Assembly (NCBI GenBank): GCA_016844285.1
Contig: JAENIS010000012.1
Location: 1-22,194, forward strand
Reading direction: 5' to 3'
Length of the DNA: 22,194 nucleotides
DNA from: Dehalococcoidales bacterium
Lineage (GTDB): Bacteria; Chloroflexota; Dehalococcoidia; Dehalococcoidales; UBA2162
Shown: positions 3,014 through 20,645 of the stretch, piece by piece
Position numbering within the stretch: the stretch's first letter is position 1
Layout: each line of letters begins with the position of its first letter
Program-made: the position numbers and the translations under genes
The notes under the pieces: model-generated
What the model saw: only the letters and a program-made list of their open reading frames with translations
What the model was told of the DNA's origin: nothing
Database searches by the model: none

Positions 3014-3153
3014 ATAAAAGGGAGGGGTCTACGCCCCCTCCCTTAAATCTCTTCCCCTTCTCCTGAGTAGGAGAAGGGGAGCAAGGGGATGAGGTCGTCC
3101 GTAAGTGGTAATGTGTGCTGAAGCAGTCATTGGCTTAATAACCTGACAGAACA
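3014..3153 (+). repeat. Dispersed hairpin repeat, copy R2 (empty-site homologue of R4)
   Basis: This copy lies in the 270-bp gap after the DUF362 gene. It has a 10-bp stem at 3018-3027/3035-3044 and a second of 10-11 bp at 3054-3063/3070-3079 (CCCCTTCTCC with GGAGAAGGGG). From about 3050 to 3150 it matches 14436-14455 plus 14597-14690, so it shows the uninterrupted form of the repeat into which the 14456-14596 element inserted. The match extends into a unique-looking tail, TGCTGAAGCAGTCATTGG. Confidence 0.8.
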
Positions 3154-11367: not shown

Positions 11368-12621
11368 ATGATTAATAATACAGAATTACAATCTTGTTTG
11401 CAGACACTAGCTCAATTTACTTTAAGCCTCTACTATAAGCATTTACCACCCGATAAGCTTAAGCAATATGAGGAACATATCAGAGTTTTTGCACTTACGG
11501 ATTTAGATTCAGAGGTAAAAGAGAACCCTATGTTTGCTGAATGTGTTGCCGTGATGGAGAAGGATGAGCATATCAAAGCGTTGAATGGTAAGTTGGTTGG
11601 TACGCCCGATAGCTCAAGTATTATTCAAGATAACATGTTTACAATACTTAGTTTTCTTAGCCAACTGTATATCAGTAATCCAACTTATGACCAAGACCTT
11701 TTTAACCAAGCTTACTCATCATTCGAGGAATTGTTTTACTCTGACGTTCTTCGAATTAGGGACACTTCCCGTCTCAATAATTTTCAGTCCAATTCCTCTT
11801 TAATCGAACTAGGACACGGGATTAATATGAGGAAAGTACCTATACAACGAGTTATACATACAGCCTCAGAAAGAATGCAAAGCTGGGTGTATGCTAAACC
11901 GTATATATCTGATTTTATTATAGAAAGATTGTACGAAAGGAGAAAAATAATTGGCGATATAAGTAAGCTGAATGAGAATGATAGCCTGCAAGGATTATCC
12001 AAGACGGGAGAACTATTCGACTTTGTCATTTCTGCATTTAGAATCTTGAAGCCATCGGCTGTATTTAGAGATGCAACAATTTCATCGGAATTGCTGACGT
12101 TTCATCCTATGCCAAGCACAGGCACAATGTATACAATGCCATTATCTGAAACCATTGTCTTGGGAGAAAAATGTGTAATTGAAGAAAAGGATATTCCTGA
12201 ACTTAAGAATATTTTTACCTTTCTTATTGCTGAGAATGACAGCCGATTCAATGTCGCGCAGAGACGCCTTCGCCTTAGTATGGAAAGAAGTAGCTTAGAA
12301 GATCGCCTTATAGACTACATGATTGGACTAGAAACATTATATTTGCCAGATGGAAACCAAGAGTTGTCTTTCAGGCTATCCTTAAGAATGGCTTTCTTAC
12401 TATGTTCCGCCCCTAGCGAGAGAAAAGAGACGTATTATTTTGTAAGAAATATTTACAACACTAGAAGCAACATAGTTCATGGTAATAAATACAACTTGGT
12501 CAAGGATGAAATAGATAAATTTGAGGAGTTATTACGCAAATCACTAAAACTCTGGCTTAATGATAAAAGTAATTTCTCGAAAAAAGCATTAAGCAATATC
12601 TTTTTTCCGATACTTAACTAA
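11368..12621 (+). CDS. HEPN-domain protein (Apea-like), probably foreign
   Basis: A 417-residue protein whose C-terminal third looks like an Apea-like HEPN domain. The HEPN signature R-x4-H is at Arg366-His371 (TRSNIVHG), preceded by ERSSLEDRLIDYMIGLETLYL-type helices (306-326) and FRLSLRMAFLL (335-345). HEPN domains with this motif are often metal-independent RNases, and several act in phage defence or toxin systems. The N-terminal ~290 residues are not recognised. The gene is visibly AT-richer than its neighbours and uses AT-ending codons, which suggests recent acquisition. No clear Shine-Dalgarno precedes the ATG. Its stop codon directly abuts the duplicated dnaX fragment. No partner antitoxin is adjacent, so a defence role is an inference. 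Confidence 0.65.
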   Translation: MINNTELQSCLQTLAQFTLSLYYKHLPPDKLKQYEEHIRVFALTDLDSEVKENPMFAECVAVMEKDEHIKALNGKLVGTPDSSSIIQDNMFTILSFLSQLYISNPTYDQDLFNQAYSSFEELFYSDVLRIRDTSRLNNFQSNSSLIELGHGINMRKVPIQRVIHTASERMQSWVYAKPYISDFIIERLYERRKIIGDISKLNENDSLQGLSKTGELFDFVISAFRILKPSAVFRDATISSELLTFHPMPSTGTMYTMPLSETIVLGEKCVIEEKDIPELKNIFTFLIAENDSRFNVAQRRLRLSMERSSLEDRLIDYMIGLETLYLPDGNQELSFRLSLRMAFLLCSAPSERKETYYFVRNIYNTRSNIVHGNKYNLVKDEIDKFEELLRKSLKLWLNDKSNFSKKALSNIFFPILN

Positions 12622-16795: not shown

Positions 16796-17018
16796 CCCTC
16801 CAGGGAGGGTGTGTAACAACTCCTCACCCTATATCCCTCTCCCCTTATTAAGGGGAGAGGGAAGAGATTGTAGAGAGGGGGCTTCGCCCGGAGGGAAATC
16901 CCCCTGAGTCCCTCCCGTGTCAAGCACGGGACAGGCTCTTTTCCAAAGGGGGAAATAGAAGCTTCGTATTGACAAAACAGGGAGACCTCTCCCTTTAAGA
17001 AAGGGAGAGTGAGAGGGA
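16796..17018 (-). repeat. Dispersed hairpin repeat, copy R5, inverted orientation
   Basis: This copy fills the 309-bp gap between ybaB and recR. It contains a 12-bp stem (16835-16846/16850-16861), a GGGC-GAA-GCCC hairpin on the minus strand near 16880, the CCCGTG/CACGGG hairpin near 16920, and a 10-bp stem at 16987-16996/17000-17009. Bases 16896-16958 are a near-identical inverted copy of 1215-1280. Its terminator-like part points against ybaB and recR, unlike most other copies. Confidence 0.8.
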
Positions 17019-17037: not shown

Positions 17038-17667
17038 TTGAAAGAAAAAGTCACCTTGAATCAGGGGCTTCCGGCCACGGCGGAACCAATACATAAGCTT
17101 ATCCAGGAGTTTAACCGGTTGCCTGGTATTGGCCCCAAGAGTGCCCAGCGGATTGCCTATTACTTGCTGCGCGCCTCCGGGGAGCAAGCCCGGCTCCTGG
17201 CCGAAGCGATACTGGCCGTCAAAGAGCAGGTGACACTATGCTCATCTTGCTTTAATGTTACCGATACTGACCCCTGTCTCATCTGCCGTAACGAGGAGCG
17301 TGACCGGAGCAAGGTTTGCATTGTCGAGCAGCCGCAGGATATCCTGGCTCTGGAGCATACCCGGATTTACAAAGGACTCTATCATGTCCTCCACGGCGCC
17401 ATCTCGCCCACTGAGGGCATTGGCACCGAGGATATCAGAATCAGGGAGTTTCTTGAGCGTCTCAAGAACAGCCAGATTAGCGAGGTTATTTTAGCCACCA
17501 ACACCACCCTTGAAGGAGAGCAAACGGCCATGTATCTAAGCCGGTTGATTTCCCCTTTGAGTATCAAGGTTACCCGCCTTGCCCGTGGACTCCCCTTCGG
17601 CAGCGAGCTGGAATACGCCGACGATTTTACTCTGACCAGGGCTATTGAGGGAAGGCAGGAGTTTTAG
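17038..17667 (+). CDS. recR: Recombination mediator protein RecR
   Basis: RecR works with RecO (present 2 kb downstream) to load RecA on SSB-coated gaps. The 209-residue protein has a helix-hairpin-helix ([17 protein letters not shown], 28-44), a C4 zinc finger (Cys68, Cys71, Cys80, Cys83) and a Toprim domain starting at VCIVEQPQD (93-101), with [12 protein letters not shown] at 153-164. The TTG start is supported by AAGGAGG at 17026-17032. This gives an N-terminal extension of about ten residues compared with typical RecR. The last 48 bp (17620-17667) recur in decayed form at 18201-18247, beyond hicBA. Confidence 0.95.
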
Positions 17668-17690
17668 TTACTGAAGATGTCTATCAAGAG

Positions 17691-17783
17691 GGTAGTTTAA
17701 GAGGGGCGAAGCCCCTTCTTTTAATCCCTCCCCCTCTCCTTCCAGGAGAGGGGGATAAAGGGGGTGAGGTTGATAAAAACCTT
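17691..17783 (+). repeat. Dispersed hairpin repeat, copy R6
   Basis: A compact copy between recR and hicB. It holds the GGGGC-GAA-GCCCC hairpin with T-rich tail and an 11-bp stem (17730-17740/17744-17754) made of C5TCTCCT and AGGAGAG5. It closes with AAAGGGGGTGAGGTTG, as R7 and R8 do with variations. It is very similar to R7 at 18783-18870. Confidence 0.85.
17702..17722 (+). terminator. recR: Terminator-like hairpin of repeat R6, after recR
   Basis: AGGGGC pairs with GCCCCT over a GAA loop, followed by TCTTTT. It is placed and oriented to end the recR transcript. Confidence 0.55.
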
Positions 17784-17810
17784 GATTCAAGGGCAAGGGG
17801 AGGATAGATT

Positions 17811-18014
17811 ATGTTAAGACACTTTACACTGGAATACTGGGTAGACGATAGATGGTATGTTGGCAGACTCAAAGAAGTTCCTGGCGTATTTAGCCAGGGC
17901 GAGTCCCTCGAAGAATTGGAGGAGAATATTCGGGATGCTTATCGCCTGATGGTTGAGGAAGAGTTCTCACCACAGACAACTGTCCAGACCAAAGAAATAG
18001 GTATCGAGGCGTGA
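17811..18014 (+). CDS. hicB: HicB-type antitoxin
   Basis: The 67-residue antitoxin partner of HicA. It has the partial RNase H-like fold pattern of HicB: strands FTLEYWVDDRWYVGRLKEVPGVFSQGES followed by helix SLEELEENIRDAYRLMVEE. There is no C-terminal ribbon-helix-helix or HTH domain, so it is the short form that neutralises HicA and may depend on the complex for autoregulation. The antitoxin-first order is the reverse of classical hicAB, but known. The stop overlaps the hicA start by 4 bp (GTGA). GGGGAGGA at about 17798-17805 gives a usable ribosome site before the ATG. Confidence 0.85.
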   Translation: MLRHFTLEYWVDDRWYVGRLKEVPGVFSQGESLEELEENIRDAYRLMVEEEFSPQTTVQTKEIGIEA

Positions 18015-18190
18015 AACGGCGCGACCTTATCAGGGAATTGGTGGATGCCGGATGCTATTTGAGACGGAGTGGCAAGAAGCACGACATTTACATGAACCCT
18101 AAGAACGGGAAGAAGGCACCGGTTCCTCGTCACTCCGAAATCAAGGAGAGTCTTGGCGAGCTAATCAGAAGGGAGCTTGGTCTCAAATGA
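18011..18190 (+). CDS. hicA: HicA-type toxin (mRNA interferase)
   Basis: A 59-residue toxin with the HicA double-stranded-RNA-binding fold, which cleaves or blocks mRNA when unpaired. It begins MKRRDLIRELVDAGCYLRRS and then has GKKHDIY with His24, the catalytic residue position in this family. The later block KKAPVPRHSEIKESLGELIRRELGL matches the conserved C-terminal half (P-x-H-x-E-I). The GTG start overlaps the hicB stop by 4 bp, so the toxin is translated only with or after the antitoxin. All family landmarks are intact, so the toxin is probably functional. The pair lies between the two recR 3' ends. Confidence 0.87.
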   Translation: MKRRDLIRELVDAGCYLRRSGKKHDIYMNPKNGKKAPVPRHSEIKESLGELIRRELGLK

Positions 18191-18200
18191 TAGCAACATT

Positions 18201-18247
18201 GACGATTTTACCATAATAAGGCTACCGAGGGAAGGCAGGAGTTTTAG
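18201..18247 (+). pseudogene. recR: Decayed duplicate of the recR 3' end
   Basis: This 47-bp segment matches recR 17620-17667. The first 11 bp (GACGATTTTAC) are identical, the next 9-10 are diverged with a 1-nt gap, and the last 27 differ at two adjacent bases and end in the same GAGTTTTAG. The frame is shifted, so it is not coding. It forms a direct repeat that brackets repeat R6 plus hicBA. Confidence 0.75.
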
Positions 18248-18319
18248 CACTACTTCAGGTGAAATGCGAGTTTGGCTATATGGCCATTGAACGAAAACCT
18301 AAACAGTTGGAGACATACA

Positions 18320-18781
18320 ATGCCTGAGACGATAACAGTAGATACCACACTTATAAATATAGTCAAATCAGCTATTGAAGTCGCATTGGTATATGAAACG
18401 GCAACTCATGGTAAAAGAAAACTTGGCATCGCTGGCGAAGCTGGTGAGGTCTTAGTCTGCTACCAACTTGGACTTAAATTAGTATTGGATTCTCGTTCAG
18501 AGGGTTTTGATGCCATAGATAAAGATGGCCTGCAAGTTCAAATTAAGACTCGCCGAAGCGAATCTGAGGGGTTACCTCGTGATGTAGGTCGAACAAGTCC
18601 TTTTTCTCGACATAAATTCGACTATGCACTTCTCGCTTTACTGGACCATAATTACAAACTCTGTGAGATTTGGCGTGCTGATTATAGTAAGTTAAAGCCA
18701 ATTATAGAAAAGGAGAAACGGCGAAACCCCAGTCTTTCATCCTTCAAACATGTGGGAGAACTTATCAAACCGAAGCCATAA
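18320..18781 (+). CDS. Uncharacterised AT-rich protein with a PD-(D/E)XK-like motif
   Basis: A 153-residue protein that I recognise only by pattern. GIAGEAGEVLVCYQLGLKLV (about 35-54) and the later SEGFDAIDKDGLQVQIKTRR (about 61-80) look like the helix and the D-x(n)-Q-x-K core of PD-(D/E)XK-type nuclease-fold proteins. From memory, families annotated DUF6998 share the GFDAIDxDGxxxQIKTRR string. ATG 18320 is chosen because GGAG (18309-18312) lies 7 nt upstream; an upstream in-frame ATG at 18272 has no ribosome site. Base composition is clearly AT-richer than the housekeeping neighbours, which suggests transfer. It follows the decayed recR end with no partner gene. A DNA-processing role is a guess. 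Confidence 0.6.
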   Translation: MPETITVDTTLINIVKSAIEVALVYETATHGKRKLGIAGEAGEVLVCYQLGLKLVLDSRSEGFDAIDKDGLQVQIKTRRSESEGLPRDVGRTSPFSRHKFDYALLALLDHNYKLCEIWRADYSKLKPIIEKEKRRNPSLSSFKHVGELIKPKP

Positions 18782-18782
18782 T

Positions 18783-18870
18783 AAAAGGGGTAGTTTGAAG
18801 GGGCGAAGCCCCTTCTCTTAATCCATCCCCCTCTCCTTTGAAAGGAGAGGGGGACACAGGGGGTGGGTTC
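18783..18870 (+). repeat. Dispersed hairpin repeat, copy R7
   Basis: The copy contains both standard hairpins: GAAGGGGC-GAA-GCCCCTTC (18797-18815) and a stem of up to 13 bp formed by C5TCTCCTTT and AAAGGAGAG5 (18827-18839/18841-18853). It ends 3-4 bp before the ATG of the next gene, so its final GGGGGTGGG probably serves as, or replaced, that gene's ribosome site. Confidence 0.85.
18797..18819 (+). terminator. Terminator-like hairpin of repeat R7
   Basis: An 8-bp stem GAAGGGGC/GCCCCTTC with a GAA loop is followed by TCTT. It points the right way to end the preceding AT-rich gene. Confidence 0.5.
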
Positions 18871-18872
18871 AT

Positions 18873-19661
18873 ATGAAAATAATCGATTTGACCGACCAAT
18901 ATGAAAAGCTATACTTCGTCTGCCTCGAAGACTGGTCGGAAGAGATGAAAGAGGCGGGAAACCACAAAGAGGTCTGGTATAACCAGATGAAGGACAAAGG
19001 CCTCCGGGTGAAACTGGCACTGGATGACCGTGGCGAAGTTGGCGGCATGATACAGTACATCCCCATCGAGCACTCATTTGCCGAAGGCAAGGAGCTATAT
19101 TTCATCAATTGTATCTGGGTTCACGGACACAAACAGGGCAGGGGTGACTTCCGAAAACAGGGGATGGGTAAAGCCCTGCTCCAGGCGGCAGAGGATGACG
19201 CTAAAGCGATTGGGGCAAAGGGTATTACCGCCTGGGGCATTCCACTGCCTTTCTGGATGAAGGCATCCTGGTTTCGCAAGCAGGGATACACCAAGGTAGA
19301 CCAGCAAGGATTTTTAGGACAGGTTCTGCTCTGGAAACCTTTTAGCCATGATATAATTCCCCCGAAATGGTTCAAGCGCCAGAAAAAACCCACAGGGACA
19401 CCTGGTAAAGTAGCGGTGACCGCATTCCTCAACGGATGGTGTCCGGCTCAGAGCCTGACCTTCGAAAGGGCAAAACGAGCGGCTGCCGAGTTTGGCGATA
19501 AAGTGACCTTCCGACCGATTAACACCCTGGATAGAGAGCGCTTCCTGGAATGGGGCATATCCGATGCCCTGTTTATCGACGACAAGGAGGTGCGCACCGG
19601 ACCACCTCCTTCCTATGAAAAAATAAGGAAAATGATTGCAGCGAAAGTGACTAAATTATAG
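18873..19661 (+). CDS. GNAT acetyltransferase fused to a YoaP-like domain
   Basis: A 262-residue two-domain protein. Residues ~1-155 form a GNAT N-acetyltransferase; the acetyl-CoA loop is DFRKQGMGKALLQAAEDDA (92-110) in the R/Q-x-x-G-x-G pattern. Residues ~178-258 match the YoaP-like C-terminal region: a thioredoxin-like strand VAVTAFLNGWCPAQ with one cysteine (Cys190), then FGDKVTFRPINTLDRERFLEWGISDALFIDDKEV. Similar fusions are annotated in Firmicutes and archaea, with unknown acceptor substrate. The ATG directly follows repeat R7. recO begins 14 bp after its stop, so the two genes are likely co-transcribed; that link may simply reflect the insertion of R7 and its neighbours. Confidence 0.8.
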   Translation: MKIIDLTDQYEKLYFVCLEDWSEEMKEAGNHKEVWYNQMKDKGLRVKLALDDRGEVGGMIQYIPIEHSFAEGKELYFINCIWVHGHKQGRGDFRKQGMGKALLQAAEDDAKAIGAKGITAWGIPLPFWMKASWFRKQGYTKVDQQGFLGQVLLWKPFSHDIIPPKWFKRQKKPTGTPGKVAVTAFLNGWCPAQSLTFERAKRAAAEFGDKVTFRPINTLDRERFLEWGISDALFIDDKEVRTGPPPSYEKIRKMIAAKVTKL

Positions 19662-19675
19662 TCGAGTAGACCAAA

Positions 19676-20470
19676 ATGCCCAAGCCACGAACTTATCAGA
19701 CGGAAGCCATTATTATCAAGAAGACCAGGCTCGGAGAGGCGGATAGAATCCTTACCCTCTATACCCCGGAAATGGGCAAGATTCAGGCCGTCGCCAAGGG
19801 GGTGAGACGTCCCCGGAGCAAGCTCACCGGGCACCTGGAGCTGCTCACCCATAGCCTGGTATCACTGGCGCGCGGCCGGAACCTGGATACTATCACCGGC
19901 AGCCAGAGCATCAATAGCTTCCTGCCGCTGAAAAGCGACCTCCGGCTTAGCTCCTACGCTCTCTATACTTGTGAGCTGGTTAACCAGTTCACCGCCGAAG
20001 GTATGGAGAATCGTCCCCTGTTCCAGCTATTTCTGGAGACAATGCACCAGCTCTGTCAGTGTGACGATAGCGAACTGGTGCTGCGCTACTTCGAGCTTCA
20101 CCTGCTCAACGAGGTTGGCTACCGGCCTGAGCTTCAGCAGTGTGTCGTCTGTCACCAACCATTAAAACCGGTCGTCAACCTCTTTGGCTCCAGTGCCGGT
20201 GGTATACTCTGCCCTGATTGCCGCCAGAGCCAGCCTTTTACCTACCTTCTTTCCGTGAACGGCTTGAAGGTGCTGCGCTGGCTACAGGATGGCGACTGGA
20301 GTGCGGTCAGCCGGCTGAGGATGAATCCCGAACTAGCTACTGAGCTAGAGTCAATCGTCAGAAAATACCTCAGATATCTCCTCGAGCGAGAGGTAAAATC
20401 GGTAGCATGGTTGGATAGTTTAAGGGAATGGGGAAACGCCGGTATTAAGCAAGGCGAAGCACATCTCTAA
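19676..20470 (+). CDS. recO: DNA repair protein RecO
   Basis: RecO (264 residues) binds ssDNA and SSB and, with RecR, loads RecA in gap repair. The N-terminal OB fold is YQTEAIIIKKTRLGEADRILTLYTPEMGKIQAVAKGVRRPRSKLTG-like (7-52, key residues Gly20, Asp23, Arg24 and the KGVRR basic patch). A helical middle domain contains a zinc-finger pair Cys156/Cys159 and Cys179/Cys182. Length is typical. The ribosome site is poor (GAGTAGACC), so translation may be coupled to the upstream GNAT gene 14 bp away. lysS follows after repeat R8, a common neighbourhood for recO in this kind of genome. Confidence 0.93.
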   Translation: MPKPRTYQTEAIIIKKTRLGEADRILTLYTPEMGKIQAVAKGVRRPRSKLTGHLELLTHSLVSLARGRNLDTITGSQSINSFLPLKSDLRLSSYALYTCELVNQFTAEGMENRPLFQLFLETMHQLCQCDDSELVLRYFELHLLNEVGYRPELQQCVVCHQPLKPVVNLFGSSAGGILCPDCRQSQPFTYLLSVNGLKVLRWLQDGDWSAVSRLRMNPELATELESIVRKYLRYLLEREVKSVAWLDSLREWGNAGIKQGEAHL

Positions 20471-20473
20471 CTC

Positions 20474-20645
20474 TCCTACTTAAATCCCTCTTAATCTCCC
20501 TTTACCAAAGGGAGAAGCCTTGCTAAAGACCATTTTGGTAATTCATAAAAGGGAGTAGCCTGCGAAGAGGGGCATTAGCCCCTCTTTCTCTATTTCCCCC
20601 TCTCCTGGAAGGAGAGGGGGAATAAGGGGGTAAGGTTAATAAACA
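20474..20645 (+). repeat. Dispersed hairpin repeat, copy R8
   Basis: This long copy fills most of the 284-bp gap between recO and lysS. Its left part (20485-20540, with CCCTTTACCAAAGGG and AAAGACCATTTT) matches the tail of R1; its right part has both standard hairpins, AAGAGGGGC/GCCCCTCTT (20565-20586) and C5TCTCCT/AGGAGAG5 (20596-20606/20610-20620), then the end GGGGGTAAGGTT. The remaining gap (20646-20754) holds a 5-bp GAGAG/CTCTC hairpin with TTTTT near 20699-20725 and no clear gene. Confidence 0.85.
20565..20595 (+). terminator. recO: Terminator-like hairpin of repeat R8, after recO
   Basis: A 9-bp stem AAGAGGGGC/GCCCCTCTT with an ATTA loop is followed by TCTCTATTT. Its orientation fits termination of the recO transcript. 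Confidence 0.55.

Follow-up and report, generated by a model that had tools for sequence, protein, structure and literature searches.

A second, decayed recR 3' end beyond hicBA in a Dehalococcoidales genome, and signs of recurrent small insertions at the recR end

We analysed a stretch of 22,194 nucleotides of a Dehalococcoidales bacterium (the window), in which the interval from recR to recO contains a toxin-antitoxin pair followed by a second copy of the recR 3' end. The features of this region are the following:

17038..17667, forward strand: recR, intact, with Toprim and RecR domains (Pfam)
17620..17667, forward strand: block at the recR 3' end which occurs twice in the window (alignment with 18201-18247)
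17683..17774, forward strand: R6, a dispersed repeat of about 90 nt (nhmmer), found at the same distance from recR in L014, L016, L021 and L035
17811..18014, forward strand: HicB-like antitoxin ORF, 67 aa (UPF0150 and HicB_lk_antitox matches below the cut-offs; position and overlap with hicA)
18011..18190, forward strand: hicA toxin gene, 59 aa (Pfam HicA_toxin, E 3e-8)
18201..18247, forward strand: second recR 3' end, decayed, starting 10 nt past the hicA stop
18320..18781, forward strand: DUF6998 gene past the second recR end, 153 aa (Pfam; PADLOC mREase_II, E 3.2e-11)
18781..18872, forward strand: second R6 copy (nhmmer)
18873..19661, forward strand: GNAT gene, present in the same interval in L001, L002 and L066 too
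19676..20470, forward strand: recO, the right border of the interval (Pfam)

The two recR ends of the window begin with 11 identical nucleotides (17620-17630 and 18201-18211), go on through a diverged middle and finish with 28 nt (17640-17667 and 18220-18247) in which there are 2 differences (93% identity); the first is 48 nt long and the second 47 nt, one base fewer. The same TAG closes both, the sequences differ past it, and an unusual TTT codon is common to the two. When an HMM of recR ends was run against 458,742 nt of recR-downstream DNA, the far copy of the window came out with E = 6.4e-5. A preliminary description of the window had proposed that recR bases 17620-17667 recur at 18201-18247, with 11 identical bp, a diverged middle, a 3' part with two differences and a common stop: the coordinates hold and the pattern is borne out, the 3' part being 28 nt long.

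The pair between the two ends resembles HicBA type II toxin-antitoxin systems in that HicA lies above its Pfam cut-off (34.1 bits against 27) and its HicB-like partner overlaps it by 4 nt; unlike those systems, the HicB-like ORF is short and remains under the cut-offs of its families (22.6 against 27 bits and 23.7 against 27.3 bits). HicA has 202 relatives at E <= 0.001, the best with 88% identity. The ORF 18320-18781, which encodes the DUF6998 protein, matches PADLOC models of type II methyl-directed restriction enzymes (E 3.2e-11), so that a defence-like gene adjoins hicBA. The scans of the window for tRNA and Rfam families gave no match, nor did NCBIfam for six proteins, and no recombinase family was detected in the 16 window ORFs scanned with Pfam.

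In every distinct recR region at our disposal, we then aligned the final 60 nt of its own recR with as much as 5 kb of the DNA downstream. A RecR scan had given 80 loci, most of them titled Dehalococcoidales, Dehalococcoidia or Chloroflexi and a few titled Proteobacteria, Gracilibacteria or actinobacteria; together with genome stretches of the same order they make 106 distinct regions, sequence duplicates being merged and L075, L076 and L078 (recR incomplete or with no stop) being left out. A second recR end lies downstream in five of the 106: L065 (score 105), the window (54), L001 (50), L081 (48) and L028 (30). The 101 other regions do not score above 24, and the reverse strand of all 106 does not score above 26; the L028 copy, of 20 nt, is therefore the weakest, its 30 standing against a reverse-strand best of 26. 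All five copies finish at the recR stop codon and none exceeds 61 nt, out of a recR of about 630 nt. Thus the target gene is intact and its end is repeated at the far border in the window, L065, L001 and L081, and weakly in L028. A search of the regions at the protein level revealed no convincing longer recR fragment downstream: besides L001, L065 and L081, stretches came up in L049 (E 0.002) and L030 (E 0.007) alone, at 35-36% identity, and we took these as noise; the copies of the window and of L028 are invisible at this level.

One could think of chance similarity or of an assembly artefact, as the assemblies are mostly metagenomic and the window copy, taken alone, is short. Against this, the copies occur in five separate genomes with different cargo and score above the 101 other regions and the reverse-strand control. 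Chance was rejected on these scores, and we hold this whole explanation to be very improbable.

Larger sets were run with strict filters, which miss short copies (G003, which is L028, gives one match only). In the order of G001, 125 of 156 genomes match at E <= 0.02. G001, G002 and G087 show a second end which is strong and lies on the contig of the first; the further second matches are weak, and G009, whose two ends lie on different contigs, was left out of the count. A draw from the class yielded 300 genomes with a match at E <= 1e-4 out of 393, with two matches only in G001 and G087. As to possible vehicles, viral contigs contain neither the recR-end pattern nor a RecR relative, and no plasmid record resembles window 17811-18778.

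The preliminary description had suggested looking for other cargo between the same two ends, and each of the five regions indeed carries a different cargo gene: hicBA in the window, a 104-aa NIPSNAP-like ORF in L065, a 161-aa PF20603 protein in L028, a 107-aa ORF with weak GLTT and pentapeptide matches in L001 and a 260-aa TPR protein in L081, all in the same direction as recR. The hicBA pair is incidental to the insertion site. ORF reading and Pfam detected no integrase in the DNA enclosed by the recR ends of the five cases, in agreement with what had been said of the hicBA cargo.

Two of the five cases can be compared with relatives free of the insert. The recR of L053 is 91% identical to that of L065 over 581 nt; L053 has a single recR end with recO 145 nt past it, while L065 has recR, an extra gene, the second end, and then a spacer and a recO which align with those of L053. 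As the spacer is repeat-rich, this alignment rests more firmly on recO and on the recR end. In the same way, L081 can be aligned with L040 and L046, from which its TPR gene is missing: the far copy of L081, its spacer and the start of its methyltransferase gene correspond to their recR end, spacer and methyltransferase start. Both comparisons show the far copy to be the original recR end, still at its original position; a residual end on the far side had been supposed in the preliminary description. No relative with an empty site and both ends was seen, relatives with a single end being the rule (101 of the 106). The search for strains deprived of hicBA with a single recR end did not succeed for the window itself: no empty relative of its own hicBA was found among the 106 recR regions, and the nearest to the window by recR body, L001 (78% at the nucleotide level), carries its own insert.

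These comparisons also bear on a duplication within one genome, in which a tandem duplication would have doubled the recR end and other DNA would later have taken the place of that between the copies. The ends of L065, which are 95% identical, and the TTT codon present in both window ends speak for it. However, the DNA past the far copy in L065 and L081 matches the recR-downstream DNA of the insert-free relatives and holds no second cargo copy. Moreover, 12 of 55 sites in L001 and 9 of 45 in L081 are not the same in the two ends, a difference of 20-22%; when read from the codons, 10 of the 12 and 6 of the 9 differences are silent, a predominance which indicates that each end derives from a functional recR gene, the two genes belonging to different lineages. 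Such a duplication thus appears improbable to us.

We find it likely that recR received a short segment at its 3' end and that the displaced old end was left beyond the cargo; five cases are few for this reading. In the window, the incoming segment would have comprised a recR 3' end with R6 and hicBA behind it; recR would have been completed by the incoming end, and the displaced old end would have stayed past the cargo, where it would now be decaying (18201-18247). We infer that the window insert arose in the same way as the inserts of its relatives, and the cargo can presumably be transcribed together with recR. As for the integrated element of the preliminary description, the layout it relied on does recur, in 5 of the 106 regions and with different cargo; the element itself finds no support here, as no integrase is near and R6 is dispersed.

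Indeed R6, whose inner part is hairpin-like (GGAGAGGGGG/CCCCCTCTCC), occurs in the window at 3023-3095, 16818-16889 (reverse strand), 17683-17774, 18781-18872 and 20549-20640. It is also found in pieces of G125, G001 and G087, and is absent from 200 kb of G145. It lies within 150 nt of recR in 10 of the 106 regions, and starts 16-20 nt past the recR stop in L014, L016, L021 and L035 too, all of which are without a second end. R6 is therefore more likely to be ordinary recR-downstream DNA than cargo of an element: R6 and the toxin-antitoxin pair do both lie between the ends, as had been proposed, and it is the place of R6 in the cargo which is doubtful. It follows also that the donor probably had an ordinary recR-R6-hicBA arrangement.

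Two routes contend for the entry of the segment. In the first, donor DNA from a relative, made of recR and a following gene, might have paired with the host recR over this anchor, its other end being joined without homology in the last stretch of the host recR; the far copy would then be a leftover of the host and no dedicated recombinase would be needed. Scar-free arrangements with the same gene behind recR do exist: L013 has the cargo of L065 there, and L012, L025 and L009 have that of L028. The cargo is more alike than the recR bodies (91% against 81% between L012 and L028, 85% against 78% between L013 and L065), and R6 travelled together with hicBA. A precedent is given by the immunity-gene arrays of the Vibrio type VI secretion system (T6SS), where the 3' end of an E-type effector has been shifted back; these arrays were formed by displacement, and homology-facilitated illegitimate recombination was proposed (PMC5361080). 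They resemble our cases in that an upstream part is conserved, a new gene stands behind it and the old 3' part is pushed downstream; unlike our cases, what is displaced there is an effector with its immunity gene, while here the target recR remains whole and the duplication is confined to 61 nt or fewer at its end. By itself, such an anchored recombination accounts neither for a scar limited to 61 nt in all five cases nor for the fact that recR stands alone among the gene ends that we scanned, and the ends of L001 and L081 are only 78-80% alike. The argument from the 61 nt is weakened by the fact that long copies might be lost by recombination. We regard this course of events as quite possible, if less likely than not.

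The scan of gene ends just mentioned covered 1434 ends of ORFs of at least 100 aa, recR ends included, with a copy looked for within 3.5 kb, in 800 kb of DNA from G125, G001, G087 and G145 together with L001-L080 and the window. In the 36 rows which score at least 28, 12 come within 3 nt of the stop. Six of these are recR (L065, the window, L001, its repeat G001, G087 and L028); the six others are L017 and L075, which are full-length tandem paralogues, G125 236627 (50), which we take to be a repeated ABC-ATPase motif, L059 (41), window 18272-18781 (34), where the match is at the start of recO, and G125 86888 (28). Five of the remaining rows are masked N runs and the others stop short of the stop codon. 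A clear scar is thus seen only at recR among the 1434 gene ends, next to four stop-reaching rows which are neither recR nor paralogues, and we rejected the idea of a general habit of gene ends.

A further case is L096 (G061:C5), which has no second recR end. The last 90 nt or so of its recR are 95% identical to L065 and 93% to L053, its body only 66%; it is the largest outlier among 5253 pairs, but by 3.7 standard deviations only. This recR looks like a mosaic in which an end resembling those of L065 and L053 is joined to a distant body, and the divergence seems too high for ordinary homologous exchange. The ORF behind it was taken for a DNA alkylation repair gene.

The derivation of both ends from functional recR genes, the 61-nt limit, the lack of convincing longer fragments downstream, the solitary position of recR in the scan of gene ends and L096 all speak for a process bound to the end of recR. 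On account of the 61-nt limit and of the L096 mosaic, we consider a site-specific recombination at the recR end, with a recombinase acting in trans, to be quite possible, if somewhat short of an even chance, and we lean slightly towards it rather than towards illegitimate recombination anchored by homology. A search of seven genomes found recombinases of the tyrosine type in all seven and of the resolvase type in two (G001 and G087), none of them tied to recR. A more specific version, in which the last 60 bp or so of recR would be an attachment site and the Dehalococcoidales would draw on a common pool of integrase-less cassettes, each with one or two genes and its own recR end and put in by a recombinase in trans, seems rather doubtful to us.

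Whatever the mechanism, very small cargo enters the small genomes of this group of uncultured Chloroflexota recurrently at one spot, with no integrase of its own and with the target unbroken, and the insertion at the recR end leaves a datable scar. If a recombinase acts in trans, recR would represent a novel attachment site, and the cassettes would be mobile units of very small size; should the attachment site and the cassette pool be real, this would be an integron-like gene-capture site on a DNA-repair gene. If there is no such recombinase, the five cases document, in nature, the illegitimate capture of genes with a conserved gene as the anchor. Our literature search, with most subscription journals outside its scope, found no report of recR as an insertion site. 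The nearest parallel is given by the ssrA-specific genomic islands of Dehalococcoides, 15 of which are without an integration module (PMC3146451). They are like the recR site in their position at the 3' end of a single-copy gene, in the short direct repeat at the far border, in their recurrence and in their varied cargo; they are unlike it in that the target is here a protein gene, recR, that one or two genes are inserted and not an island, that no recombinase is found in the five recR cases, and that the repeat is of 20 bp at ssrA and of up to 61 nt, diverged, at recR (PMC3146451).

Integron gene cassettes are compact single genes which lie in one direction beside a repeated short site. The recR site shares with them the compact genes of the same direction next to a repeated short site; it differs from them in that the recR-recO interval shows no order of age. 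No significant age order was found along it (20 against 15 with 3 ties, of 38, p = 0.18).

In this bacterial order, insertions of one or two genes recur between recR and recO, and the gene turnover of this stretch is high: the distance between recR and recO goes from 6 bp to 5.4 kb across the sample. In the 88 intervals for which recO was located, 120 of the 129 ORFs of at least 70 aa follow the direction of recR, and 15 of the 88 intervals are without any such ORF.

Finally we must note a few minor observations. Elsewhere in the window, at 11368-12621, there is an ORF of 417 aa with no Pfam or PADLOC match. Two protein families recur in the recR-recO interval, in 19 and in 17 of the 88 regions, often right before recO; by reading, the second of them is methyltransferase-like.
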